From assembly GCF_011682235.2 (NCBI RefSeq), contig NZ_CP076718.1:2634767-2698766 (forward strand): a stretch of 64,000 bases of DNA. Reading direction: 5' to 3'. Source of the stretch: Rhodocaloribacter litoris. GTDB taxonomy: Bacteria; Bacteroidota; Rhodothermia; Rhodothermales; ISCAR-4553. Positions 41,221-55,950 of this stretch are shown one piece after another; within the stretch, counting starts at the first letter, position 1; every line of letters begins with the position of its first letter. Under the pieces are notes generated by a model. That model was given only the letters and a program-made list of their open reading frames with translations. It did no database searches and was not told the DNA's origin. The translations under genes were made by a program, and so were the position numbers.

Positions 41221-41236
41221 AGGGGCGTGGTTCAGG
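41221..41236 (+). repeat. 16-bp direct repeat, left copy
   Basis: AGGGGCGTGGTTCAGG here is repeated exactly at 55697-55712. The two copies lie just outside the MITEs that flank the CRISPR-Cas island and could mark a former recombination site. No other role is visible. The rest of 41168-41345 holds nothing I recognise. Confidence 0.45.
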
Positions 41237-41345: not shown

Positions 41346-41528
41346 TAGCAGAGGTCATTGTTAATGAGGGCATGGCTGCTCTTAGCGAACGGCGCACGTG
41401 TAGCCGCGGATCTGGACGCGTTGCGCGTCCCGTCAGCCCGGGCGCGCCGGCGGACAGGGGCGCACCCGTGAAGGGTGCGGCTACATCACTCTTGGCAACG
41501 ACGCCTTCAAGGTCTATGACCCCTGCTA
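41346..41528 (+). mobile_element. MITE copy B, at the distal end of the CRISPR array
   Basis: This 183-bp element has ends TAGCAGAGGTCAT and ATGACCCCTGCTA and is flanked by TA on both sides (41344-41345, 41529-41530). The interior matches copy A: GTAGCCGCGG, GGACGCG-TTG-CGCGTCC, GCACCC-GTGAA-GGGTGC, GCGGCTAC. It ends six bases before the first CRISPR repeat. It has the same orientation as copy A and the opposite orientation to copy C. Confidence 0.8.
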
Positions 41529-41534
41529 TACCCT

Positions 41535-44500
41535 GTTTCAATACCTAAAAGGTGCGATTAAAAGCTGAATTCAACGGTGGCTCGTTGAATTCAACGATTC
41601 GTTTCAATACCTAAAAGGTGCGATTAAAAGATCTCGGGTAAGAAGTTCATGGTCGAGGCAGCACCGTTTCAATACCTAAAAGGTGCGATTAAAAGCTGCT
41701 CTTGGGTTTTGCCGCTTCCACCACCGCCTCTGGTTTCAATACCTAAAAGGTGCGATTAAAAGGCCCGCGTGCTCATGTTCTTGTACGGGCTCCGCTTGAG
41801 TTTCAATACCTAAAAGGTGCGATTAAAAGCTGCGTGAGGCGGCCCTGCTGGCAGGGCACACGCAGGTTTCAATACCTAAAAGGTGCGATTAAAAGGCCCA
41901 TCCAGCAGGTCACCCTCGCCAACCCCCTCTGTTTCAATACCTAAAAGGTGCGATTAAAAGGGCTACAGCGGCACCATCACCAGCGTCATCCTCACCGTTT
42001 CAATACCTAAAAGGTGCGATTAAAAGATCCTGCTGACCCTGGCCGAACCCCATGCGGTTCATGTTTCAATACCTAAAAGGTGCGATTAAAAGGGCTACAG
42101 CGGCACCATCACCAGCGTCATCCTCACCGTTTCAATACCTAAAAGGTGCGATTAAAAGGGACTCGGAGGAACCAACCTGTCTTCAGCAATAGAAGGTTTC
42201 AATACCTAAAAGGTGCGATTAAAAGGCCCTCCTTGGCCTCCTGCGCCATCTGGAGGCACGTCATCGTTTCAATACCTAAAAGGTGCGATTAAAAGTGTGC
42301 TCGGGGTCGGCGTGCGTGCCGTCGTACACGGTTTCAATACCTAAAAGGTGCGATTAAAAGTCAAGCGGGCCCGTCTGATCGCAGAAAAGGCCGACGTGGT
42401 TTCAATACCTAAAAGGTGCGATTAAAAGTCCGCCCCCCGACTTTGCTCCCCCCCCTTTTTTTTATCGTTTCAATACCTAAAAGGTGCGATTAAAAGCATC
42501 CCACTCGACGCCATCACCGATTCGCCGTATCAAACAGTTTCAATACCTAAAAGGTGCGATTAAAAGGAGGCCGTCGCGGGCGCCGAGGCTCATGTATTCG
42601 AGTTTCAATACCTAAAAGGTGCGATTAAAAGGAAGCTCTATGAACCCGGCAACGATCTCTTCCTCCCTGTTTCAATACCTAAAAGGTGCGATTAAAAGCC
42701 GTCCAGGACTACCGCGCCGCCGCCCGCTACGAGAGTTTCAATACCTAAAAGGTGCGATTAAAAGTCTCCAGATTCTGCCGTGCTCACCACCTTGTCCCAG
42801 GGTTTCAATACCTAAAAGGTGCGATTAAAAGTTGCCAGATACCAGAACAGGCAGGTGCGCGCCACACGTTTCAATACCTAAAAGGTGCGATTAAAAGTTG
42901 AGCAGAGGGTGGTGGCGCTACCCCGCAACATGCGTTTCAATACCTAAAAGGTGCGATTAAAAGCGGATAACGTGTCCCAGCGCCTCGTCGAACTGCTGCC
43001 GTTTCAATACCTAAAAGGTGCGATTAAAAGCTGGCGCGCCGCGCCAACGACATTTTCAACCAGGAGTGTTTCAATACCTAAAAGGTGCGATTAAAAGCCC
43101 CGGCGTCCGCGTTGGTGCGGATCTGGTACGCCAGTTTCAATACCTAAAAGGTGCGATTAAAAGCGGCCTGGCTGCGTGCCGGGCTAGGGCGTGCCGAGGA
43201 GTTTCAATACCTAAAAGGTGCGATTAAAAGTGCTGGCGGCCGCCCTGGAGGACTCGGGACTGTTCTGTTTCAATACCTAAAAGGTGCGATTAAAAGCCGA
43301 TGTACACGTCAAAATCCGTGCTCGCGTAGACCAGGTTTCAATACCTAAAAGGTGCGATTAAAAGCTGCAAGAGGCCATGCAGCGCGATGACGCCACGCTG
43401 GGTTTCAATACCTAAAAGGTGCGATTAAAAGTGTGAGACGGGTATGACCGAGGAGGAGGCCGAGGAAGCGTTTCAATACCTAAAAGGTGCGATTAAAAGT
43501 GTGAGACGGGTATGACCGAGGAGGAGGCCGAGGAAGCGTTTCAATACCTAAAAGGTGCGATTAAAAGCTACTGCCGGCCTCGTCGAGCAGGTTGTCTACG
43601 CCCTGTTTCAATACCTAAAAGGTGCGATTAAAAGGCGTCCCGCGCATCCTGCCCGTACGCCCCCGTGTCGTGTTTCAATACCTAAAAGGTGCGATTAAAA
43701 GCAGCACCTCGGCACAGCTCATCGTCCCTGTCTGCGTCCGTTTCAATACCTAAAAGGTGCGATTAAAAGACGTGCGCCGTACCCGTAGCGTCCGAGATGC
43801 GGCCTAGTTTCAATACCTAAAAGGTGCGATTAAAAGCTGGGACCGGTTCGAGCCGGGCTCCCTGGGCGAGATCGTGTTTCAATACCTAAAAGGTGCGATT
43901 AAAAGCCACCTACATCGACGCGGGCGGCGTCGTGAAGACGGTGGCCTCGTTTCAATACCTAAAAGGTGCGATTAAAAGCCCACGGCGTGCGCCTACCGCG
44001 ACGCCCGCCTCCTCGTTTCAATACCTAAAAGGTGCGATTAAAAGGGCGTCCCGTGGCGCAGGGGGCTGCCCAGGTTGAACGTTTCAATACCTAAAAGGTG
44101 CGATTAAAAGCCGCAACACCGACCCTGCCAGCCCGCTCGTCGCTATGTTTCAATACCTAAAAGGTGCGATTAAAAGTCGCCTGCGCCCCTCCTCGACGCG
44201 CACCATGTAACGTTTCAATACCTAAAAGGTGCGATTAAAAGGTTCGTGGCGGCCTGCGCATCCTGGCTGCGCCGCCCGTTTCAATACCTAAAAGGTGCGA
44301 TTAAAAGCGTCGTTGGCGACGCGGTAGATGGTGTACTTCGAGAGTTTCAATACCTAAAAGGTGCGATTAAAAGCCGGCGGCGAGGCCCCGCCCGAGCAGG
44401 GCGGCGTCGTTTCAATACCTAAAAGGTGCGATTAAAAGTCTCAGTTTGGTACGAACGAATGTGACGTCAGCCAGCCGTGTTTCAATACCTAAAAGGTGCG

Positions 44501-45441
44501 ATTAAAAGCCTCGACGACCGCCTGAGGCGATCCACCGGAGGGTAGTTTCAATACCTAAAAGGTGCGATTAAAAGCCCCGTCACGGACCACATGCTGCCCC
44601 ACGAGACGGGTTTCAATACCTAAAAGGTGCGATTAAAAGCTCCTGCCCCGCGTCAGCATCACTCCCGAGTTTTTCGTTTCAATACCTAAAAGGTGCGATT
44701 AAAAGCCGAGGGCACGATCTCCCTGGCCCAGCCATTCACGCGTTTCAATACCTAAAAGGTGCGATTAAAAGCGGTCTCCGCGATGGCCTCGGCATCCTCG
44801 CGGGCCCGCGTTTCAATACCTAAAAGGTGCGATTAAAAGCGCATCGCCCGGCTGCACGCCCGCATCGCCAACATCGTTTCAATACCTAAAAGGTGCGATT
44901 AAAAGAGGAGCCACAGGCCGGAGAGGCGTACCGGCGATCCCGGTTTCAATACCTAAAAGGTGCGATTAAAAGGCGGCATCGCGGACTACATCCGCCGCGT
45001 CACGCACAGTTTCAATACCTAAAAGGTGCGATTAAAAGGGGTCAGGACCGGCCCGTGGGGGACATCGACACGCAGGCGTTTCAATACCTAAAAGGTGCGA
45101 TTAAAAGACGGGCGGCCCACGTTTTTCAAGAGCTGGGTTCCCGTTTCAATACCTAAAAGGTGCGATTAAAAGTCGACGAGGGCGTCGATGACGGCGAGGG
45201 CCTGCCCCGGTTTCAATACCTAAAAGGTGCGATTAAAAGCTCGAGCTGTGGGACGAGGAGCATGAGATCATCACCGTTTCAATACCTAAAAGGTGCGATT
45301 AAAAGTCGCATGGTCGTCCGGCACAAGAGCGAAACCCTGGAAAGTTTCAATACCTAAAAGGTGCGATTAAAAGTGGCGACGACGAGGCCGACGACCTCGT
45401 CCGCGTCATCGGTTTCAATACCTAAAAGGTGCGATTAAAAG
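41535..45441 (-). CRISPR. CRISPR array, 59 repeats and 58 spacers, type I-B
   Basis: I counted 59 copies of a 30-bp repeat that on the plus strand begins GTTTCAATACC and ends GCGATTAAAAG. All copies I read are identical, including both terminal ones. Spacers are about 35-39 bp. The reverse complement ends in ATTGAAAC, the 8-base 5' handle usual for Cas6-processed type I crRNAs. Together with the promoter at 45478-45506, this places the leader on the right and transcription leftward. Spacers 7 and 9 (41961-41996, 42093-42128) are identical, as are adjacent spacers 29 and 30 (43432-43469, 43500-43537). The spacer at 42429-42466 is nearly homopolymeric. Short frames read across the array are meaningless. 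Confidence 0.98.
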
Positions 45442-45701
45442 TCCGCGGTTCAAAGAGCAAAAACACGCCTCTTGATGAAAATAGGCGGCTTTTGGTACAA
45501 TGTCAAGGTATCTGTCGTCGTCGGCCTCCGGTTATCCGAAAATCCCGGGACTCCGACGACTCTTTCCAAGTATTTGTTTGTAAAACACTTGGATTGAGGG
45601 GCATGCCCGAGATTCCTTCCTTGAGGCATTAATCCTCAAGCCGTGGCCCGGTGGACGACGACCCTGTTTTTAGTGTATCTTTAATAAAAACAGAATACTG
45701 A
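45442..45701. promoter_or_regulatory. CRISPR leader and divergent cas2 upstream region
   Basis: These 260 bp are non-coding and AT-richer than their surroundings. They separate the array, which is read leftward, from cas2, which is read rightward. Two inverted repeats are visible: CTTGAGG-CATTAAT-CCTCAAG (45620-45640) and CTGTTTTTA...TAAAAACAG (45664-45693). The latter ends 8 bp before the cas2 ATG. They may be regulator sites or adaptation-complex signals. Confidence 0.75.
45478..45506 (-). promoter_or_regulatory. Promoter of the CRISPR array
   Basis: On the minus strand, a perfect TTGACA (45506-45501) is followed after 17 bp by TATTTT (45483-45478). Transcription would start near 45471 and enter the first repeat about 30 bases later. 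Confidence 0.8.
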
Positions 45702-45968
45702 ATGCCATATTACATTGCCGTCTACGACATTAACGTACGACGTGTCGCCAAGATGCTCAAGCTTTTCCGGCGCTATCTGACCTGGGTGCAGCGCTCTGTC
45801 TTCGAAGGCGAGTTGACCGAAGCCCAGTTCCGTCGCTTGCAGCATGAAGTCAGGCGGCTCATGAATCCCGAAGAAGACGTGGTCATTTTCTATGAGCTGC
45901 GCGACGTGCGCTACAGCCGCCGCCTGGTGCTGGGCACCGAACAGGGCCACCGCGACCGGTTCCTCTGA
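45702..45968 (+). CDS. cas2: CRISPR-associated endoribonuclease/adaptation protein Cas2
   Basis: The 88-residue ferredoxin-fold protein starts MPYYIAVYDINVRRVAKMLK, with the conserved Asp in YDI. It continues with YLTWVQRSVFEGELTEAQF and VIFYELRDVRYSRRLVLG. Cas2 dimers bridge Cas1 in the spacer-integration complex. Unusually, it is on the strand opposite to all other cas genes here. It converges on cas1, and the two stop codons abut exactly in the palindrome TGATCA (45966-45971). It must be expressed from its own promoter in the leader region. No clear Shine-Dalgarno is seen. Confidence 0.96.
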   Translation: MPYYIAVYDINVRRVAKMLKLFRRYLTWVQRSVFEGELTEAQFRRLQHEVRRLMNPEEDVVIFYELRDVRYSRRLVLGTEQGHRDRFL

Positions 45969-47051
45969 TCACCACCACATGTGCAGACCCTGATAGGGCT
46001 CGTTCTTCGGGTCCAGCAGGTGCCGGATCAGCTTGTAGCATTCCAGCCGGATCAGGCGCTCATAGCTGACGTGTCGCTCCAGACGGCGGTGATGAACCGT
46101 CTGGCGCAATCGTTCATCCCAGTACCGGACGAAAATCCGCCGTCCCGCTTCTTTCAGATACACCCCGCCCAGTCGCTCTTCAAAGTGCCGGGGAGTCACC
46201 TCACCGGTTTTGACCAGCCGAAAGATGGCGCGATCGACCAGGATAGGCTTGAAGATCTCGGACAGGTCCAGCGCCAGCGAAAAGCGCCGCGCGCCCGGCT
46301 CGTGCAGATAGGAGATGGTCGGATCCAGCGCCGTGCGGTGAATCTGGCGAAGGGTGGTCGTGTAGCAGAGGCTGTTGCCGAAGCTGATCAGTGCGTTGAT
46401 CTCGTTGGAGGGCGGCCGCCGCTCGCGCTTTTCGAAGACAAAGGCTTCGCCGGGTCCGTCGGACAGAATCGCCGGCCAGACGCCGTAGTAGGCGTCTCGG
46501 CTGCGTCCTTCGATCCCCATCAGTTCGGAAATTTTCTCGGCGGACCTGAGCTGGGCGCGCTCCTGCTCGATGGTGGCGATGGCGGCGGAGACGGTCTCCC
46601 GGCGCGTCCCTTCCAGACGATTGACATAGTACCGCAGCACGCGCAGCAGGTTGTAGGTGGCCGCCTCCACGATGGCCCGCGCCAGATAAAGCCGCCGCTT
46701 CGTTCGCACATAGTGCAGGACCTGTTCGATACGCAGCCGCCCGCTGTGCAGGTGGTCGCGCGGGATGTAGGTGCCCGTGTAGTTGCCGTAGTAGTCGTAG
46801 AAGTGCGCCGGAATGTCGTGGCGTGCCAGAAACGTGAGCAGTTTTGAGTTCAGATCGACCTCGCCGAAGAAATACAGGCTTTCAATCTGCTCGACCGGAA
46901 AGGGGATGCGTTCGCCGCTGGGCGTGCCCGATGGCTCGCCCGTCTCGTCCTGGTCGTCCGGGATGCGCTCGCCGGCGGCTTTTTCGAAGAAGAGCGTGTT
47001 CTGTCGCCGGCGCAGGCGCCCGCTGGAGAAAATGTAGTAGGGACGCTTCAT
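45969..47051 (-). CDS. cas1: CRISPR-associated integrase Cas1 (type I-B)
   Basis: The 360-residue protein starts MKRPYYIFSSGRLRRRQNTLFFE, the I-B form of Cas1. Active-site residues are visible: Glu181 (GIEGRSRDAYY), His250 (TISYLHEPGARRFSLALDL) and acidic Asp262/Glu265. Cas1 integrates new spacers with Cas2. The N-terminal domain contains a hydrophilic insertion rich in Asp, Glu and Gly at about residues 30-47, longer than I would expect. It is the last gene of the minus-strand cas operon. Its ATG overlaps the stop of the small exonuclease-like remnant. Confidence 0.97.
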   Translation of the reverse strand: MKRPYYIFSSGRLRRRQNTLFFEKAAGERIPDDQDETGEPSGTPSGERIPFPVEQIESLYFFGEVDLNSKLLTFLARHDIPAHFYDYYGNYTGTYIPRDHLHSGRLRIEQVLHYVRTKRRLYLARAIVEAATYNLLRVLRYYVNRLEGTRRETVSAAIATIEQERAQLRSAEKISELMGIEGRSRDAYYGVWPAILSDGPGEAFVFEKRERRPPSNEINALISFGNSLCYTTTLRQIHRTALDPTISYLHEPGARRFSLALDLSEIFKPILVDRAIFRLVKTGEVTPRHFEERLGGVYLKEAGRRIFVRYWDERLRQTVHHRRLERHVSYERLIRLECYKLIRHLLDPKNEPYQGLHMWW

Positions 47052-47167
47052 CGTTCAGGGGGCTGACATTCGCGGGGAAGCAGCGAAAGCAGCCGGGCAA
47101 AGCAGGTCAGCGTTGCCGCGACGTCGGCTGCGCAGTAGCGGCGCACGCCTTCGATCACCCGAAGCAC
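47048..47167 (-). pseudogene. C-terminal remnant of an RNase H-like 3'-5' exonuclease
   Basis: This frame sits between cas4 and cas1 and overlaps both (from a GTG within cas4 to a TGA that overlaps the cas1 ATG). It reads VIEGVRRYCAADVAATLTCF and continues ARLLSLLPRECQ. The YC-x2-DV-x2-T pattern is the last motif of DnaQ/PolB-type 3'-5' exonucleases. All upstream exonuclease motifs are absent, so if real it is a decayed gene whose body has been replaced by cas4. The family link is inferred from about 20 residues. It might instead be a fortuitous 39-residue frame. Confidence 0.4.
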
Positions 47168-47697
47168 AATTCCTCATACGCACATTTTTTGCAGAAGCGG
47201 CGGTTTTCGAGGCGAGGTGGTGGGGTGGGTAGGGCAGCCGTCTGATGCAGCTCCTGCACGAGCGTGCGCAACCGGGCTTCTTCGTCTGCGGTGAGCGTGA
47301 CGGCTTCGGTGCGGCGCTGGCGGGGAAAGTTGAGCTGGCCTTCGAAGGGACGACCGTCGGGCCGCGTCACACCCCGGAGCTTGAGCAACCACAGGTAGAA
47401 GCGGAGTTGCCAGCGGTGCGCTTCGAGGCCGGAGGGACTCCGTTTCGTCTCATGGAGTACGCCGTCGCGCAGCTCGGCCCAGTCGATGCGTCCGGCCAGC
47501 CGGAGCCCTTCGTGGCCTTCCACTTCCACATTCACGTGCTGCAGCTCGTCGGCATAGGTGGTCTCGTCCAGCAGGCGTCCCAGCGCCACGGCCTCCGACT
47601 CCTGCTCCATCCAGAGCCCATGCACGGCCAGCCACGCCTTGCGCCGACAGAGCACAAAGTAGTTCACCAGCGTGCCGGTGATGGAAAGCTCAGGCAT
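47155..47697 (-). CDS. cas4: CRISPR-associated exonuclease Cas4
   Basis: The 180-residue protein has the Cas4 hallmarks. A first cysteine lies in YFVLCRRKAWL (residue 17) and a C-terminal cysteine trio in RFCKKCAYEELCFG, together holding a 4Fe-4S cluster. The RecB-type nuclease motifs are GRIDWAEL, HETKRS (ExK) and QLRFYLWLL (QxxxY). Cas4 trims prespacers and selects the PAM for Cas1-Cas2. It lies 33 bp after cas3 and is separated from cas1 by the 103-bp remnant region. Confidence 0.96.
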   Translation of the reverse strand: MPELSITGTLVNYFVLCRRKAWLAVHGLWMEQESEAVALGRLLDETTYADELQHVNVEVEGHEGLRLAGRIDWAELRDGVLHETKRSPSGLEAHRWQLRFYLWLLKLRGVTRPDGRPFEGQLNFPRQRRTEAVTLTADEEARLRTLVQELHQTAALPTPPPRLENRRFCKKCAYEELCFG

Positions 47698-47730
47698 GGT
47701 CCCTTCCTTGCGCCCAGCGTCTGTTCAGAT

Positions 47731-50106
47731 TCACAGCATAAACGATGCGGTATCATTTCTGATGTCTGGCTGTAGCCCCAGACAGGGATCGTACTTGCAG
47801 TCGGCCACCCACACCCGGTACTCCTGCAACCGCGTCACTGCATTCTGCTGACGCAGGGCATGAAAGCGTCCCTGCGAAATCGGCACGAGCAGCCCGTAGG
47901 CTTCGACATACTCCCCGCGTTCGGCTCGTCGCAAGAACGCCTCCTGGAGCTGCAGCGGAAGCACTTCGTAGCCATCAAACAGCGCATCGAACTGATCCTC
48001 CAGGTTCGGATCCGACTCAAAAGCCACCAGGTGTTCCGGACCGGCTACCGCTTCGTAGGAAGAACGGCCACGCGCCACCTCCTGTTGAAGCGACGGTACT
48101 TCGAGCTCGTACACCGCATCCAGCCATGCGCCAATCGTTGCCTCATCGATCATCTGTCCATCAAACCGTTCGAGGTGCGCCACCGTGCGACGCATCAGCG
48201 CTTCCTGGCGATACGGCCAGGTCCAGTCCATGGCTTCTGTCATCACAAAAACGGGACGCTCTTTGAAATGTCGCCGGCGGTTTACCCGCCCGAAACGCTG
48301 CACCAGCGCTTCCAGAGGGGCCGGATCGGTGTAGATCGTATCGAAATCGACATCCAGGCTCACCTCCACGACCTGTGTGGCCACCACCACGAAGCCGCCC
48401 TGACGTGGCTGTCGATCGACCCGCGCCTGCAAGACGGCCTCTCGCTGCAGCCGATCTTCGGCCGTAAATCGGCTGTGCACCAGCAGCACCGGATCGTGCT
48501 CGGGATCACAACTTTGCGGCCACGGGCTGTTCAACCGTACAGCCAGCGCTTCGGCGAGCTGCTGCGCAGCGGCTACCAGGTTGGTTACGACCAGCACGGC
48601 CTCACCCTGCTGCACACGCCGAACGATCTCGTCCAGAACGTGCCCATCCGCCAGCTTTCCTTTTTTCAGAAAAAGGCGATGGCGACAGAATTGCTTGTAC
48701 AGCTGACTGTCGGCCGACTGCCAGACAACCTTCAGTTCCCGCTCCAGCAAGTCGCGCAGCCAGGAAGGCATGGTAGCCGTCATTACGGCCAGGCGCACGT
48801 CAAAATGCTGTTGCAACATAGAAAACAGTCCCAGTAGCAGCCCGAGCCGAAAGGGTTCGTAGCCGTGAATTTCATCGACGATCAGATGGGCTCCCTGGAG
48901 CATGGCCCACTGCCCTTCGTAGCCTGGCAATCGGAAAGCCGCCCGCAGTAACTGATATGGTGTGGCCAGCAAGACGGGCTGCTGATGCAAGCGCCCCAGC
49001 GCCTTGAATCGCTGCGCCTGCTGATAGGCCACCACCTGCTCGGTAACCTCGTCGCGAATCAGCTCCCGGTAAACCGCCTGGACGGCCCGGCTATGCAGCA
49101 GCGCCACATCATCCCTGTTCAGGCCATATTTATCGACGAAACGCTGATACATCGCATTCAGGCTGGCCTGGTATGGAAGCAGATAGCATACAGCGCCCCG
49201 GCGGCCTTCCTGAAGCTGACGGCGCGCCCAGAGCAATGCCGCTTCCGTTTTTCCGCTTCCGGTAGGCGCGGCCAGCAGCAGCGAGCCCACATGCTCGGCG
49301 GCCGTTTGTTGATGCGTGTACCAGCCGGATCGGCTGGACGGCAACGCCTTCGCAACGCCGTCCAGATCAGGCGCCTTCAACGGGGGAGCCTGCGCACTGG
49401 CGAGGCGATCGGCCTGCAGCATGAGGCCGCGTACAAACAGCGCCTGCCGCCGACGCTGCCATGCGTACCGGCGCTCCCTGCGTGCAGGCCGACGCTGGCT
49501 CCGAAAGTACTGGCGATAACAGGCAAGCGCCTTCCGAATACGATCCGGCCCATTGCTCAGCAACACCGGCACGTCATTGAGCAGCACGTGAAGCGAGGGC
49601 GCCTGCACGTTCAGGCGCTCTGCCGAGACTATCCCGGGCCATTCCTCAGCAGTCCAATGGGCCAGCGCCTCTAACCTTTTTTGATCCATTTCCAGCCAGC
49701 GCTCATCGATGCCGCTGTCGGCCGGATCTTCCACTTCGATGTACTGGCGGGCCAGCACCGGGTAATCCCGATGGTGGGCGGCCACGGCGGCCACCGCCAG
49801 CGGATAGCGCAGGTCGTCTGCCGGCAAGAGCCAGTCCAGAAACGCCAGCGAGAGCATCTCGTGGCGGTAGTTCCATTTTTCTCCGCTCTGGAGCATTTCC
49901 TGGAATCCCCGGGCAGCCTTGCCGAAATCGTGCACCCAGGCGGCGGCAAACAGCGCGTCCCAGAGGCCGGGCAGTTCCAGCTTCTCCTCCAGATCGGGCA
50001 TGCGCTCGCGCAGCTGCCGCAACCGCGCCACCACCTGCCGGGTATGGGCCGGGAGCGACTCCCCGCCCCGGGCTGCGCTTTTCGCCAGCAGGTCTTCCGC
50101 TTCCAT
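47731..50106 (-). CDS. cas3: CRISPR-associated nuclease-helicase Cas3
   Basis: The start MEAEDLLAKSAARGGESL gives 791 residues. The N-terminal HD nuclease has His21, His59-Asp60 with Lys63 (WVHDFGKAARGFQ) and His111-112 (VAAHHRDYP). The SF2 helicase follows, with Walker A APTGSGKTEA near 280-289, DEIH (LIVDEIHGYEP), the MTATMP motif, and VVEVSLDVDFDTIYTD...QRFGRVNRR. Cas3 is recruited by Cascade to unwind and degrade target DNA. HD and helicase are fused in one protein. A longer in-frame start at 50343 would run 79 residues back into cas5 and was rejected. Confidence 0.97.
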   Translation of the reverse strand: MEAEDLLAKSAARGGESLPAHTRQVVARLRQLRERMPDLEEKLELPGLWDALFAAAWVHDFGKAARGFQEMLQSGEKWNYRHEMLSLAFLDWLLPADDLRYPLAVAAVAAHHRDYPVLARQYIEVEDPADSGIDERWLEMDQKRLEALAHWTAEEWPGIVSAERLNVQAPSLHVLLNDVPVLLSNGPDRIRKALACYRQYFRSQRRPARRERRYAWQRRRQALFVRGLMLQADRLASAQAPPLKAPDLDGVAKALPSSRSGWYTHQQTAAEHVGSLLLAAPTGSGKTEAALLWARRQLQEGRRGAVCYLLPYQASLNAMYQRFVDKYGLNRDDVALLHSRAVQAVYRELIRDEVTEQVVAYQQAQRFKALGRLHQQPVLLATPYQLLRAAFRLPGYEGQWAMLQGAHLIVDEIHGYEPFRLGLLLGLFSMLQQHFDVRLAVMTATMPSWLRDLLERELKVVWQSADSQLYKQFCRHRLFLKKGKLADGHVLDEIVRRVQQGEAVLVVTNLVAAAQQLAEALAVRLNSPWPQSCDPEHDPVLLVHSRFTAEDRLQREAVLQARVDRQPRQGGFVVVATQVVEVSLDVDFDTIYTDPAPLEALVQRFGRVNRRRHFKERPVFVMTEAMDWTWPYRQEALMRRTVAHLERFDGQMIDEATIGAWLDAVYELEVPSLQQEVARGRSSYEAVAGPEHLVAFESDPNLEDQFDALFDGYEVLPLQLQEAFLRRAERGEYVEAYGLLVPISQGRFHALRQQNAVTRLQEYRVWVADCKYDPCLGLQPDIRNDTASFML

Positions 50107-50111
50107 ACAGC

Positions 50112-50822
50112 TTAACGGAACGCGTGGAAATAGAGCAAATGCGGTTCGTTTGAACCTGGCGCTTCTGTCCAGCACGGTTCCGGCGCGTCCGACTCCAGAT
50201 GGACCGGTGCATCCAGTGCCAGAAACCAGTCCCACGCCACCTGATGCCGGCTTCTCGGGGTAATGAAGCGCGGCATATAGAAAGCAGGAGCCAGCGGTGC
50301 CTTTTCCCGAAAGCTTACCGGAAGCAGTCCGGGCACCAGCCATCCTCTACGCGCGGCGTGCAGCCTCACTCGTTCGACCCGTCGTACGCTGACCAGCTCC
50401 TGAGAGCGGCCCAGCGTCAGGATATAGCAGGGGTTGCGAAATGCCCGGTAAAGTGCCTCCAGTTCGTCCCCGGTCACGTACAGCGTAAGTCGAGGATGCA
50501 CCAGCCACTCACGCGGAAGAATGTTGCTTGTCGCTTCCAGATTCTTCCGGGCGGCTTCGCCACGCGTGGCCGTATTGGGTTGAACAAACCAGATTGTCTC
50601 CACATCGTCCACCCGATGACGCGCGCACTCAAACCGGTAGGCAAACTGTAGTGCCTCCGGATCCGGGAAACGCCCCAGCGCCGCGCTGATCAGGCCGTAG
50701 ATCGTAGAGGGCGGCGGCATGGGGTAGGTGGGCTGGCGGCCGATCAGAAAATGCGGATGGCGAAACGACGCGACCGGACCCGCCAGATCAACTTTGACCG
50801 CTTCCAGGCGAGCTTCGTTCAT
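50112..50822 (-). CDS. cas5: CRISPR-associated protein Cas5 (type I-B)
   Basis: The 236-residue RAMP protein has the Cas5 N-terminal signature VKVDLAGPVASFRHPHFLIGRQPTYPMPPPSTIYGLISAALG. Cas5 caps the 5' handle of crRNA within Cascade. The ATG at 50822 overlaps the cas7 stop as ATGA, which I prefer over an ATG nine bases upstream. It is followed directly by cas3. Confidence 0.93.
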   Translation of the reverse strand: MNEARLEAVKVDLAGPVASFRHPHFLIGRQPTYPMPPPSTIYGLISAALGRFPDPEALQFAYRFECARHRVDDVETIWFVQPNTATRGEAARKNLEATSNILPREWLVHPRLTLYVTGDELEALYRAFRNPCYILTLGRSQELVSVRRVERVRLHAARRGWLVPGLLPVSFREKAPLAPAFYMPRFITPRSRHQVAWDWFLALDAPVHLESDAPEPCWTEAPGSNEPHLLYFHAFR

Positions 50823-51886
50823 GCCAGCCATTCCGGATGACGTTCCAGTTCTTCAGCAAGCCGCGCAAAAACCCGGCGGGGATGTCCCAGTACCACGCCA
50901 TGGGGATAGGCCTGCTGTAGCGTCTCCAGGTTCTGTTCCAGCTCCTGACGCCCCTCCGACGCATACCCTTCCACCCAGCCGATGTACAGCGGCGACAGAA
51001 TCTGGTCGCCCCAGACCTCACCGATTTCCTGAAAAGCCTCCAGTACGGGCCGCGCCAGTCCCTGGCGATCTCCGTCGATCGTGTAGTAGAACGGATTGTT
51101 ACCGCCCCGCACGACGGCCATGATCACCACCACCGGATTCACATCCGTGTAGTGCAACGCATGCTTGGCGCCCCCGTCCACCACCGGCATGGCCGAAAGC
51201 AATGCGCGAATACGCTGCAGACGCACTTCGTCCGGAAGCCGATAGGCCCGGTTGGCCTCATCGTGCGCCAGGCCTCGCGTCTCGGCCAGCTGGCGCCGCA
51301 CCTCATCCAGATTCAAAAAGCCGGTGCGGTTTTCGTAGGTGAACACGCCGATTTGCCCGAGGTCGATGGAAAACATACCCTTGAGCGACGTGCGATAGAA
51401 CTGGTGTTCGTGCGGGACCGGATCGCCCTCATGACGGCTCATGGTCCCGAAATCCTGCACGAGCTCATCGCTTATGGCCACCAGCGTCCCTACCCGGAAG
51501 GGCGAAACGCGCGTCACCGTCTCTTTCGTCTCGGTGGCGTCTGCGAAGGCCGCCCGACTGTCCGCGGCTTCCACACTTTTGCCCGGCGCACGCATGTAGC
51601 CAAACACGTCGTCGTCGGCATACTCGATGGGATTCGCGTCCGTGTAGGCCACCTTTTTCTCCCGGAAGATGGGCGCGACGGTCCATCCCTCAGGTTGCAG
51701 TTGTTCCAGCGTACGCCGCAGCCAGTAGCGGTAGGCCTGGGCCGACACGTACGGATAGCTCCGGCCGTTAATGCGAAGCGCTTTGACCACCACAGCGTTT
51801 TCTGTGGTGTTTCCGGGCTGCATACCCGCGTTGTTCAGCGCCGAGGCCGGCGCGTGAATCACCTGGATCCCAGCAATGAATGCCAT
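50819..51886 (-). CDS. cas7: CRISPR-associated protein Cas7 (Cst2/DevR family)
   Basis: The 355-residue protein contains blocks typical of the Cst2/DevR branch of Cas7: SALNNAGMQPGNTTENAVVVKAL, RINGRSYPYVSAQAYRYWLRRTL and VRVSPFRVGTLVA-like segments. Cas7 forms the helical backbone of the Cascade complex along the crRNA. It begins 18 bp after cas8 and overlaps the cas5 start. The Cst2-type Cas7 with a Cst1-like large subunit defines the Tneap variety of subtype I-B. Confidence 0.94.
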   Translation of the reverse strand: MAFIAGIQVIHAPASALNNAGMQPGNTTENAVVVKALRINGRSYPYVSAQAYRYWLRRTLEQLQPEGWTVAPIFREKKVAYTDANPIEYADDDVFGYMRAPGKSVEAADSRAAFADATETKETVTRVSPFRVGTLVAISDELVQDFGTMSRHEGDPVPHEHQFYRTSLKGMFSIDLGQIGVFTYENRTGFLNLDEVRRQLAETRGLAHDEANRAYRLPDEVRLQRIRALLSAMPVVDGGAKHALHYTDVNPVVVIMAVVRGGNNPFYYTIDGDRQGLARPVLEAFQEIGEVWGDQILSPLYIGWVEGYASEGRQELEQNLETLQQAYPHGVVLGHPRRVFARLAEELERHPEWLA

Positions 51887-51904
51887 GGCACTTACCTGTT
51901 TTGG

Positions 51905-53392
51905 TTACGCTTCTTCTGTTTCTTCGTCGGGGATCTCTTCCAGCAACTCGGGTGCTCCCGCGAAAAATCCGGCCTGATGCAACTGCTCCAGCACGCGAAT
52001 GCGAACCAGATCGCGCACCAGACGCCAGTCGGTCCGCGGAAAGCCCTCGCCTTCCTCGAACAGAAGCAGGTAGTCGTCGAAGGTGAGCAACAGCTGGTTG
52101 GTCCGGCGCAGCCGCTCCCGGATTGCCCGGATCAAAAGCGCCCGAAAAGCGCCATAGGCGTCGGTTCCGGAGACCAGCCCCATCAGTTGCCGGTACAGCC
52201 GGCGATCGTTGTTCGCCTGAATCTCGTGGGCCAGCTCGTCGGCCAGTCGGCGGATGGTTTCGATACGTTCCGGTGTCATCGCAGGCATCAGTTCGGTTAA
52301 AAACAGTTCAACCAGTGGCCAGATGTCGGTGTCTTCCGTGCGAAAGTCCTGACGTTGCCCTGTTCGGTTCAGGGCAAAACGTAGAAAGATGCGCCGGATA
52401 AAACCGGCGGCTTCGTCCGGCAACGCCGGCAACAGCTCGTACACGTCGTTGCGGGCCTGCAGGCGTTCGTCATCGGAAAGCGGCGCGCCCTGCTTTTTCC
52501 TGCCCTGCGGGATCGCCTGCTCATAGGCACCATCTCTGGGACGGCGCCAGAACGCCTGCACCAGCGCTTTCCATCGGGGGCGATGCGCTGCAGCTTCGGC
52601 CCGGGCCAGAAAGCGATTGACCAGCGGACGCACTGTGTAGATGTCCACAGATGGGCCATTACCGCTGTTGGAAAGATGGTACAGGGTGACCCCGGAGAGA
52701 CGATCCGTAGCAGCAAAACGGTGAGCTCCGGCTGGCCCGAACACTTCTTCCAGGGCTTCCAGCAGACGCGTACGGGGCGCTTTACGATCTTTCCAGGCAC
52801 CACCCGCCCGCAGCAGCGCCAGTTCTCGGTCCAGCGTTTCTTTCCAGTATTCGCACAGATCGAGCAGCAACTCCGGATCGTCGGCGCCCACGATCATGGC
52901 GCGTCCACTGACGATCGGAGCGACGCGCGGAAGCGACAGCACACATCCCAGCGCCAGTGCCGAAAGCGGAAGTTCGGAGCGACCGTTTGGATAGAAGTTG
53001 AGCTGCTGCTGCCCCATCAGCATCGGGAAAAGATCCCGGGCGGCCCGAACTACGGCGGGCCTCTCCGGGAAGAATGTGCAGGGTTCAGGAAGCAAGGGAT
53101 CGGCTTTTCTAGCACTGTCAAATGTATTGCGGATTTTCTGCGCTCGTTCTTCTGGTTTTTTGGACCACGAAGGATTGTCAAATGCATTCAGCGTAAACAG
53201 AATAGAGCACGGCTTCTGTAAAAGTTTGTCCAGATAGTCCCGCTCCAGCTCGTCCATCCATTGCACCCACTGATCCTGCGTGACCTCTTCGGGTCGGTCG
53301 TTGCCGGTCGCCAGCACGACGGCGGCCACGCCCATGTCGATCAGCGCGTGACCGGTCCAGCGGAGTCCTACGGATGTTGTTTCGTGTGCCAT
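51905..53392 (-). CDS. cas8b1: CRISPR-associated large subunit Cas8b1 (Cst1)
   Basis: The 495-residue protein begins SVGLRWTGHALIDMGVAAVVLATG. It contains LPEPCTFFPERPAVVRAARDLFPMLMGQQQLNFYPNGRSELPLSALALGC in overlapping blocks, as in Cst1-type large subunits. The large subunit recognises the PAM and helps open target DNA. The C-terminal end is acidic (EEIPDEETEEA). The identification rests on the Cst1-like N-terminal motif and on position between cas6 and cas7. Large subunits are poorly conserved, so subtype is slightly less certain than family. Confidence 0.88.
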   Translation of the reverse strand: MAHETTSVGLRWTGHALIDMGVAAVVLATGNDRPEEVTQDQWVQWMDELERDYLDKLLQKPCSILFTLNAFDNPSWSKKPEERAQKIRNTFDSARKADPLLPEPCTFFPERPAVVRAARDLFPMLMGQQQLNFYPNGRSELPLSALALGCVLSLPRVAPIVSGRAMIVGADDPELLLDLCEYWKETLDRELALLRAGGAWKDRKAPRTRLLEALEEVFGPAGAHRFAATDRLSGVTLYHLSNSGNGPSVDIYTVRPLVNRFLARAEAAAHRPRWKALVQAFWRRPRDGAYEQAIPQGRKKQGAPLSDDERLQARNDVYELLPALPDEAAGFIRRIFLRFALNRTGQRQDFRTEDTDIWPLVELFLTELMPAMTPERIETIRRLADELAHEIQANNDRRLYRQLMGLVSGTDAYGAFRALLIRAIRERLRRTNQLLLTFDDYLLLFEEGEGFPRTDWRLVRDLVRIRVLEQLHQAGFFAGAPELLEEIPDEETEEA

Positions 53393-53401
53393 GACGCTCT
53401 T

Positions 53402-54124
53402 TCAGGCTTGCATTTGCCGGGAAACCCGGGATTGCCGTCGATCCATCCGATCCAGCGGCTCGCCCAGGGCACCGAAGCCGCAGCCGGTGAGCTCGCCCGC
53501 GCCCACCAGCCAGGCAAACTGCACGGCCTCGGGCGGTCCTTCGACGATCACCGGACACAGGCTGCCCCGGTGGTCGATCCCCTTGATGCGCACAAGCTTG
53601 GTCTTGGCCCCGCGGTAGCGCCGATCGAAACGCATGGTGGCCTGCGGCGCCAGATGGCCCAGCCCGGCCGCCACCAGCTTGCGACGCAGCACGCGCGTGA
53701 GCACCTCGTCGGCCGCCTCGTCCTCCCAGGTCAGGTAGTCCCGCCCGCCGTCGGCGCGCACGCGCCGCGCCACGACCGGACTCTCCACGCGAAACACGGC
53801 CCGCTGGCCGAACGACGGCACCGGTAGCGTCTGCACGCTGGCCACGGCCATCCCGGCGATCACGGTCGGGTCCCGGAAAATTCCCCGCACCAGCCGCTCC
53901 ACCGGCTCGCCCTCGTAGAAACTGAGCGTCCAGAACGCTCCCTTCGGGAAGTGCAGTCCGCCTCTCCCCATGCGTCCCCCCTGCAGCCAGCCAAAGCTGT
54001 AGAGACTCAGGCTATCGTGCCAGTCGTTCTGTCCCAGCCAGCGGTGCAACACGCCCGCCAGCCGGTAGGGATAGGTGAACGGCACCGGCTCACAGGACGG
54101 CGTCAACAGCAGTCGTAAACGCAT
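53402..54124 (-). CDS. cas6: crRNA-processing endoribonuclease Cas6
   Basis: The 240-residue RAMP protein starts MRLRLLLTPSCEPVPFTYPYRLAGVLHRWLG, with a candidate catalytic His27. It ends with the glycine-rich Cas6 loop GAGELTGCGFGALGEP. Cas6 cuts the repeat RNA eight bases before each spacer, consistent with the ATTGAAAC handle of this array. It starts 12 bp after the WYL regulator gene and ends 9 bp before cas8. Confidence 0.95.
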   Translation of the reverse strand: MRLRLLLTPSCEPVPFTYPYRLAGVLHRWLGQNDWHDSLSLYSFGWLQGGRMGRGGLHFPKGAFWTLSFYEGEPVERLVRGIFRDPTVIAGMAVASVQTLPVPSFGQRAVFRVESPVVARRVRADGGRDYLTWEDEAADEVLTRVLRRKLVAAGLGHLAPQATMRFDRRYRGAKTKLVRIKGIDHRGSLCPVIVEGPPEAVQFAWLVGAGELTGCGFGALGEPLDRMDRRQSRVSRQMQA

Positions 54125-54136
54125 GGGCTCCTCCGT

Positions 54137-55180
54137 TCAGTGGGTTTTCGCGTCGCGTAAGGGTGAAGGTTGATCGTACACCCCGACACCGTAGCGTTCG
54201 GCCATGCGCCGGGCCTCGCTGGCGATGCGATGACGCAGCACGGGCGGGCCGATCACCTCGCATTCGGCTCCGTAGCTGAGCACCCAGCGGGCCACGTCGG
54301 CGAGCCCGGTCACCTGCAGGTGCACGTCCAGCGATCCGTCCGGACGCTCCACGAGCACCTGGCTCGGATGCCACTGCTCCTCCCGGATCCAGCGGGCCTG
54401 ATAGGGCGAAAAGCGCAGGTGGACGGCATAGGTGCGTTCGTCCCGGTGCATGCCGAAGGCCGGCCCCAGGTAGGCCTCCAGGTCGAAGTCCGGCCGCCGC
54501 GCGAAGGTCCCCTGGCGCAACTCCAGATGCCGGATGCGGTCGATACGAAAGTCGCGCATGGCCTGCCGCAGCCGACAGTAGGCCACCAGGTACCAGCGGC
54601 TCTGGTGCGCTACGAGGGCATAGGGCTCCACGTCGCGCTCGGTCAGCGCGTCCGCGTAGTTGGCATAGTAGTGCAAGTGCACCACGCGCTGCTCGGCCGC
54701 CGCCCGACGCAATTCGTCCAGATAGCGCAGCGGGGTGCGCGGCCGCGGTCCCATCTCGAAGCGCAGCGTACGCGTGAGCGTGTCGGGATCGACGTGAATG
54801 GGCTCGGGCAGATGCGCCGCCAGTCGCTCGACGGCCGCCTCCAGCAGGGCGGCGTCCGGCGTATCGCCAAAGGCCTCCAGCGCCAGCCGGGCCACCAGAA
54901 ACGCCGCCAGCTCGGCCCGATCCAGCGCAATCAGCGGCAGGTTTTCGGTGAAAGGCTCCTCCAGGTAATACGTCTGGCGACGGCGATCATAGGCCACCGG
55001 CACGCCCAGCCGACACAGGTACTCGATGTCGCTGGCGATCGTGCGCCGGGACACCTCGAAGTGCCGGGCCGCCCGCGTGGTGGTCAGTGGACGGCCGCTG
55101 CGCAGCCACTCCAGCAGCCGCTGCAACCGCAGAATCTGCGGCCCGCGAAGCGAACGGCCTCCGGTTGCTCGTTCAGCCAT
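54137..55180 (-). CDS. WYL-domain transcriptional regulator heading the cas operon
   Basis: The 347-residue protein has an N-terminal helix-turn-helix of the DeoR/HTH_11 type (TTRAARHFEVSRRTIASDIEYLCRLG, residues about 33-60). A WYL domain follows (VEPYALVAHQSRWYLVAYCRLRQAMRDFRIDRI, residues about 185-220) and then a WCX-like C-terminal domain. WYL proteins bind nucleic-acid or nucleotide ligands and often control phage-defence genes. It lies directly ahead of cas6 on the same strand, so it probably regulates its own operon. Confidence 0.93.
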   Translation of the reverse strand: MAERATGGRSLRGPQILRLQRLLEWLRSGRPLTTTRAARHFEVSRRTIASDIEYLCRLGVPVAYDRRRQTYYLEEPFTENLPLIALDRAELAAFLVARLALEAFGDTPDAALLEAAVERLAAHLPEPIHVDPDTLTRTLRFEMGPRPRTPLRYLDELRRAAAEQRVVHLHYYANYADALTERDVEPYALVAHQSRWYLVAYCRLRQAMRDFRIDRIRHLELRQGTFARRPDFDLEAYLGPAFGMHRDERTYAVHLRFSPYQARWIREEQWHPSQVLVERPDGSLDVHLQVTGLADVARWVLSYGAECEVIGPPVLRHRIASEARRMAERYGVGVYDQPSPLRDAKTH

Positions 55181-55217
55181 GCATCCGGTGGGTCATGCAG
55201 AGGAACGACGCTAAAAT

Positions 55218-55223
55218 ATTATA
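55218..55223 (-). promoter_or_regulatory. Probable -10 box of the WYL-cas operon
   Basis: A perfect TATAAT on the minus strand lies 38 bp before the WYL start codon. No good -35 box is found at 16-18 bp, which would suit a promoter needing activation. A TATACT lies slightly further upstream as an alternative. Confidence 0.4.
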
Positions 55224-55301
55224 GACACCGTGCAGTATAGCTTCATAACCTCTGTAGGGAAAAAATTTTTTAGCTAAGCATGATGAAACGAACTGGTGGT
55301 A

Positions 55302-55489
55302 TAGCGGAGATCAATGCTATTGAAGGTGTCGTTGTGCAGCGCGATGTAGCCGCACCCTTCACGGGTGCGCCCCTTGGCCCGCAGGAGAGCTTGGGCTGAC
55401 GGGACGCGCAACGCGTCCAGATCCGCGGCTACGCGATGGGTTCGATTCGCTAAGGGCAGCCATGCCCTCAATAACCATGACCTCTGCTA
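55302..55489 (-). mobile_element. MITE copy C, upstream of the cas operon
   Basis: This 188-bp element begins TAGCGGAGATCAAT and ends ATGACCTCTGCTA, and is flanked by TA at 55300-55301 and 55490-55491. The interior is the reverse complement of copies A and B: GTAGCCGCACCC-TTCAC-GGGTGCG first, then GGACGCG-CAA-CGCGTCC and CCGCGGCTAC. It lies 121 bp upstream of the WYL gene, so it could also affect its expression. Confidence 0.8.
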
Positions 55490-55491
55490 TA

Positions 55492-55950
55492 TAGCGCGGG
55501 TCGAACTCTTTGTGGGCGCGCTCTGCCCGGAGGCCGGATTGACGGGACACAAAGGCCGTAAGGGCCGTGTAGCACGGCCTACGTGGCCAAACCCGCGGCT
55601 ACGTGGCGGGGACGGACCGCTATCGATCCCACTTGCGGCCACCACACCATCACATACAGGGGGAGCGGCAGGTTGGCCCCGGGTGGTTCATGCACGAGGG
55701 GCGTGGTTCAGGATGACGGGCTGTTTTCAGGAGGGACCCTGCCAGGGCCGGTGGGAGCGGGCGGATGCGTGGATGCCGTGCAGAAACCAGGCGATGCTGT
55801 TTGCCATTGATAGATCACATCGGGCCGTTGGCCCCTCCGGTTGACCGACCACCGCTGTGAGCGCGTGCCGGGCGTGGAAAAAGGCGTCCCCGTGTACCCA
55901 CCTGGCCCCGGGGTGCTATTTTGGTGTGTTCAGAAACGAACGGAGCAGGT
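55492..55950. repeat. Non-coding region with palindromic repeats
   Basis: No gene is visible. GGCCGTGTAGCACGGCC (near 55567) and GTAGCCGCGG-type ends recur in inverse relation to those at 33286-33330. The right copy of the 16-bp repeat AGGGGCGTGGTTCAGG lies at 55697-55712. The last 40 bp hold the start region of the next gene. Confidence 0.55.

Follow-up and report, generated by a model that had tools for sequence, protein, structure and literature searches.

To our knowledge, the routes by which complete CRISPR-Cas loci pass from one bacterium to a distant one are mostly unknown, because their ends and their vehicles are rarely visible. Among the described systems, a bla PER-1 integron of Acinetobacter johnsonii is truncated at both ends by the same 439-bp MITE, and the authors infer that the MITE mobilised it (PMC3934969). 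At CRISPR-Cas loci, insertions of IS elements and MITEs have been reported inside cas genes, which were inactivated by them (PMC10359306). The locus analysed here, which is bracketed by two MITEs, lies in a stretch of 64,000 nucleotides from Rhodocaloribacter litoris (contig NZ_CP076718.1), hereafter called the window. It is a clear case of a recent transfer between families, in which the donor genus was identified and the edges are readable to tens of bases.

Organization of the type I-B locus

The following features were assigned in the window (strand in brackets; supporting family models are given where used):

41346..41528 (+): MITE copy 1, 183 bp, TAGC...GCTA, flanked by TA, at the array's trailer end
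41529..41534: 6-bp spacer TACCCT separating MITE 1 from the first intact repeat, with no degenerate terminal repeat
41535..45441 (-): CRISPR array, 59 identical 30-nt repeats and 58 spacers
45442..45701: leader and cas2 upstream region, located between array and cas2 like the leaders of Rhodothermus, with which it has motifs in common
45702..45968 (+): cas2 (TIGR01573), on the strand opposite to the other cas genes, as in Rhodothermus
45969..47051 (-): cas1, type I-B (TIGR03641)
47052..47155 (-): 3' remnant (~103 bp) of an exonuclease-like gene between cas1 and cas4, intact in Rhodothermus G017 (PF10108)
47155..47697 (-): cas4 (TIGR00372)
47731..50343 (-): cas3 ORF (TIGR01587 and TIGR01596)
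50112..50831 (-): cas5b (TIGR01895, TIGR02593, PDLC01197)
50819..51886 (-): cas7, Cst2/DevR (TIGR02585)
51905..53392 (-): cas8b (PDLC01387, E 3e-84)
53402..54124 (-): cas6 (TIGR01877, PDLC02101)
54137..55180 (-): WYL-domain regulator (PF13280, PF25583, PDLC01457)
55302..55489 (-): MITE copy 2, 188 bp, in the orientation opposite to copy 1 and 121 bp upstream of the regulator start (55180)

With cas1, cas2, cas3, cas4, cas5b, cas6, cas7b and cas8b next to a CRISPR array, the locus belongs to type I-B, and all cas genes read open. The true start of cas3 is probably located further in than the start of the ORF, because the first ~230 bp of the latter overlap cas5. Judged from the gene families, the locus would be an ordinary adaptive immune system, with spacer uptake by Cas1-Cas2-Cas4, crRNA processing by Cas6 and interference by Cascade together with Cas3.

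The array is present once in the genome. It is probably transcribed leftwards, since the reverse-complemented repeat terminates in ATTGAAAC and the leader is found at the right; MITE 1 would accordingly be placed at the old, trailer end. The trailer-most spacer (41565-41600) contains a long inverted repeat, GTTGAATTCAAC..., whose hairpin, taken with the neighbouring repeat, resembles a terminator followed by a T-run on the probably transcribed strand. Inside the MITE itself, no terminator-like site was found by which its hairpins might end the array transcript. Spacers 7 and 9 (41961-41996 and 42093-42128) are identical, as are spacers 29 and 30. The searches gave no Rfam matches and no plasmid or phage matches.

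Relationship to the Rhodothermus loci

Relatives of Cas8 were found in 7 of 114 genomes of the order, namely in the genome under study and in six Rhodothermus genomes. The closest locus is compared over the following segment:

47155..55271 (-): effector module, 94.1% DNA identity to Rhodothermus G017 over 8.1 kb

The rpoB genes of the same two genomes have a DNA identity of 81.5%, and synonymous divergence is 0.10-0.22 for the effector genes versus 0.57 for rpoB. In the trees, the effector module and the cas1-cas2 module both branch inside Rhodothermus, and the effector copy groups with G017 to the exclusion of G046. Within Rhodothermus, the identity of G017 and G046 is 89.3% for the block and 89.2% for the chromosomal flank; this equal divergence indicates vertical descent of the block inside that genus. 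Horizontal gain of the complete type I-B locus from within Rhodothermus, across families of one order, is thus well supported by the sequence comparisons. The first-pass annotation had suggested that the MITE pair may form the ends of a composite mobile unit, or recombination sites for gain, loss or inversion of the locus in one piece; a gain in one piece is borne out by the trees and by the contrast with rpoB.

Synonymous divergence from G017 is 0.53-0.77 for cas1-cas2, compared with the much lower values of the effector genes. From this unequal divergence, the locus is a mosaic with its joint at the cas1-cas4 border, the cas1-cas2 part, likewise nested inside Rhodothermus, being older than the effector module. 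At the joint, G017 carries the intact exonuclease-like gene and then type III-A genes, whereas the window keeps the 103-bp remnant, the scar of a deletion.

At the right edge, the match to G017 stops about 30 bp short of MITE 2, at an A/T tract where the similarity to every other Rhodothermus locus fades as well. Since the Rhodothermus loci themselves diverge from each other at this tract, except for G017 and G046, whose next genes are in common, the right end may be no more than the point where conservation naturally stops. The array at the left edge has no degenerate repeat; its last repeat, 6 bp from MITE 1, is intact. For this reason, the left end may be a breakpoint at which the array was truncated next to MITE 1, and not a complete trailer that adjoins a MITE. 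The search for an empty proB site in G001 showed that the gene adjoining proB differs there, and matches to the YWTD gene were no more than weak or partial.

The MITE pair and its family

MITE 1 aligned over the full length with the reverse complement of MITE 2 (score 246.5, versus 92 in the same orientation), with ~80% of the positions identical. Both copies start with TAGC, end with GCTA and are flanked by TA, at the inner and outer ends alike. This agrees with the first-pass annotation, which had described two inverted copies with the same ends and TA flanks around the CRISPR-Cas locus. It had also been correct in stating that the pair encloses nothing else: solely the array, cas2, cas1, cas4, cas3, cas5, cas7, cas8b, cas6 and the WYL regulator lie between the MITEs, with gaps of 6 bp on the array side and 121 bp on the regulator side. 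The lower GC content noted for the cas genes was reproduced (cas block 62.7%, left flank 68.0%, right flank 66.8%); the GC content of the array is 51.3%.

A full copy has the form TATAGCGGAGGTCATGGTTATTGAGGGC ... GCCTTCAATAGCATGGACCAACGCTATA; its core consists of two GTAG-hairpin units in inverted arrangement, and nearly all full copies have TA on both sides. The element is classified as a MITE by its length (<200 bp), lack of coding sequence, terminal inverted repeats and multiple copies. BLAST yielded 59 pieces, which are spread over about 40 places of the 4.5-Mb genome, and the terminal-repeat motif matched 56 times there (reversed control, 0 matches); the number of MITE loci in the genome is about 40-50. 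A profile search of 0.82 Mb, part of which had been picked around known copies, detected 21 MITE loci including further degenerate copies, and 20 of the 21 are situated in intergenic gaps; for density estimates, a contiguous block of 0.4 Mb was used instead. In this block, three pairs of MITEs 3-14 kb apart were observed versus 1.6 expected (P(3 or more)=0.18). In the tree of copies, MITE 1 groups with L003, L004 and L005 and MITE 2 with L023 and L035, which places the bracketing copies in different subgroups.

Outside this genome, the MITE was represented among the 114 genomes of the order by one full copy in G008 and a short fragment in G038, and none was found in the seven Rhodothermus genomes searched. 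The G008 copy (L031/L200, 1346310), from another family, has flanking sequence in common with the locus L029/L199 of the genome under study (G000 3834718); the two loci would go back either to an old insertion common to both genomes or to the transfer of a segment.

Search for a transposase

Twelve DDE_3 genes were found in the genome. They include two IS630-type families, the elements of which start with TAGCGCTAC or CTAGTGCTG; their terminal repeats are unlike those of the MITE and have at most TAGCG, plus TA, in common with it. A transposase that targets TA and has matching inverted ends, for which a search had been proposed in the first-pass annotation, was not found in the genome when the DDE_3 family was searched. 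MITEs can persist after the loss of their partner transposase, and the TA flanks suggest that these MITEs were moved by a transposase of the IS630 type. One long candidate for an autonomous partner, retrieved by its ends (G000 1824505-1826331, L190), was rejected, as it consists of two MITEs around ordinary genes. One of these two copies has no GTAG-hairpin core; the core may have been inserted on its own, or this copy may have lost it. A RAYT transposase (PF01797) was considered as an explanation of the core and was rejected, PF01797 being absent.

Origin of the bracket

Probably, transfer from Rhodothermus was followed by two independent MITE insertions at the edges, and the MITEs were not the vehicle. 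The type I-B locus passed horizontally from a Rhodothermus lineage to a bacterium of a different family within the order, and two resident, TA-targeting, IS630-like MITEs would have inserted later, independently of each other, into its non-coding edges. The bracket would then result from insertions surviving solely in non-coding DNA; as little of it exists inside the array and the gene cluster, surviving insertions near the locus tend to the edges. Independent insertion is favoured because no such MITE was found in the donor genus, the family is numerous and almost always intergenic, the two copies belong to different subgroups, no matching transposase was found and pairs occur at random frequency. 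The first-pass annotation had itself named chance flanking by a numerous family as the counter-argument to its proposal, and the MITEs are largely numerous enough for chance pairs, given their 40-50 or so loci and the lack of an excess of pairs. Yet chance bracketing of this locus, which was chosen after the fact, has a p-value of 0.0017-0.0039 under a null model resting on a home-made, rough gene caller.

It is very unlikely that the MITE pair forms a composite transposon or a set of recombination sites which brought the locus here or can still excise or invert it. The inverted copies do lie no farther than 6 and about 30 bp from the edges of a block that is foreign, the array appears truncated at MITE 1, and a MITE-bracketed mobile unit has a reported precedent in the Acinetobacter integron (PMC3934969). 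However, instead of two near-identical end copies, as expected for a MITE-bounded composite transposon, copies from different subgroups were found that are only ~80% alike, and a unit with its MITEs was seen neither in the donor (seven Rhodothermus genomes) nor at a second site, the array of this genome being single. A transposase with the same ends was not found in the DDE_3 family, the resident IS630-type copies matching in TAGCG and TA only, and pairs this close are common in the genome. The TA flanks at the outer ends carry no information here, since almost all copies are flanked by TA. The role ascribed earlier to the pair, as composite-unit ends or recombination sites, is therefore not upheld, and MITEs at both edges are by themselves no evidence of a vehicle; they might conceivably have a later part in rearranging the locus. 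Entry of the block by homologous recombination between MITEs already present in the gap from proB to the YWTD gene is hardly credible. The terminal branches of the two MITEs (0.03 and 0.06) are about half the synonymous divergence of the block from G017, by which an earlier presence is possible, but these lengths come from about 185 sites and are too noisy to date insertion against transfer. Furthermore, the incoming DNA would have needed MITEs, of which the Rhodothermus genomes have none.

Outside the MITEs, a direct repeat was noticed:

41221..41236 (+): 16-bp direct repeat AGGGGCGTGGTTCAGG, left copy, just outside MITE 1
55697..55712 (+): 16-bp direct repeat AGGGGCGTGGTTCAGG, right copy, just outside MITE 2, exact and in the same orientation

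Insertion of an island at these repeats, by site-specific or short-homology recombination, with the MITEs as passengers or later arrivals, is unlikely. In its favour, the 16-mer is exact, in one orientation and without further copies (≤ 2 mismatches) in 0.86 Mb of the 4.5-Mb genome, and random pairs of regions at equal distance shared a 16-mer or longer in just 0.07% of 20,000 trials (empirical p 7e-4). Direct repeats at the borders are also what att sites of an integrative element would look like. Against it, the repeat was noticed after the fact, and neither of the accompanying features of such an element was present: the window contains no tRNA that could serve as attachment gene, and the ORFs between the repeats include no integrase. 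The stretches from repeat to MITE are host-like in GC and have no match to the Rhodothermus flanks, and an empty site is not known, the proB neighbourhood of G001 being different. The repeat could be a real insertion scar and is offered as a lead, not as a finding. It is decidedly unlikely that the MITE pair or the outer 16-bp repeats mark a moving unit, that is, a Rhodothermus-derived locus that an IS630-type transposase acting in trans, or short-repeat recombination, has mobilised inside the recipient lineage.

Comparison with known systems

The type I-B loci of Rhodothermus (G017, G046, G045 and relatives) have the same gene order as the locus in the window, cas2 on the opposite strand, and a related repeat and leader. 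They differ in several respects: G017 has type III-A genes between cas1 and cas4, which are lacking in the window; the arrays of G003 and G017 end in a degenerate trailer repeat, whereas the array in the window does not; and MITEs are found at both edges in the window only, the Rhodothermus genomes searched having none. The MITE resembles IS630-family MITEs in its TA flanks, its TAGC start, its short imperfect terminal inverted repeats, its non-coding sequence and its length below 200 bp. From the IS630-type elements with a DDE_3 gene resident in this genome, it differs in its terminal repeats.

As in the cases of PMC10359306, transposable elements including MITEs are associated with a CRISPR-Cas locus, but there they are inserted inside cas genes, while the cas genes here are open. 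In the bla PER-1 integron of A. johnsonii (PMC3934969), several genes are likewise enclosed by two MITEs; the same MITE stands at both of its ends, whereas the two copies described here differ at ~20% of their positions and bracket a locus whose donor genus is without the MITE.
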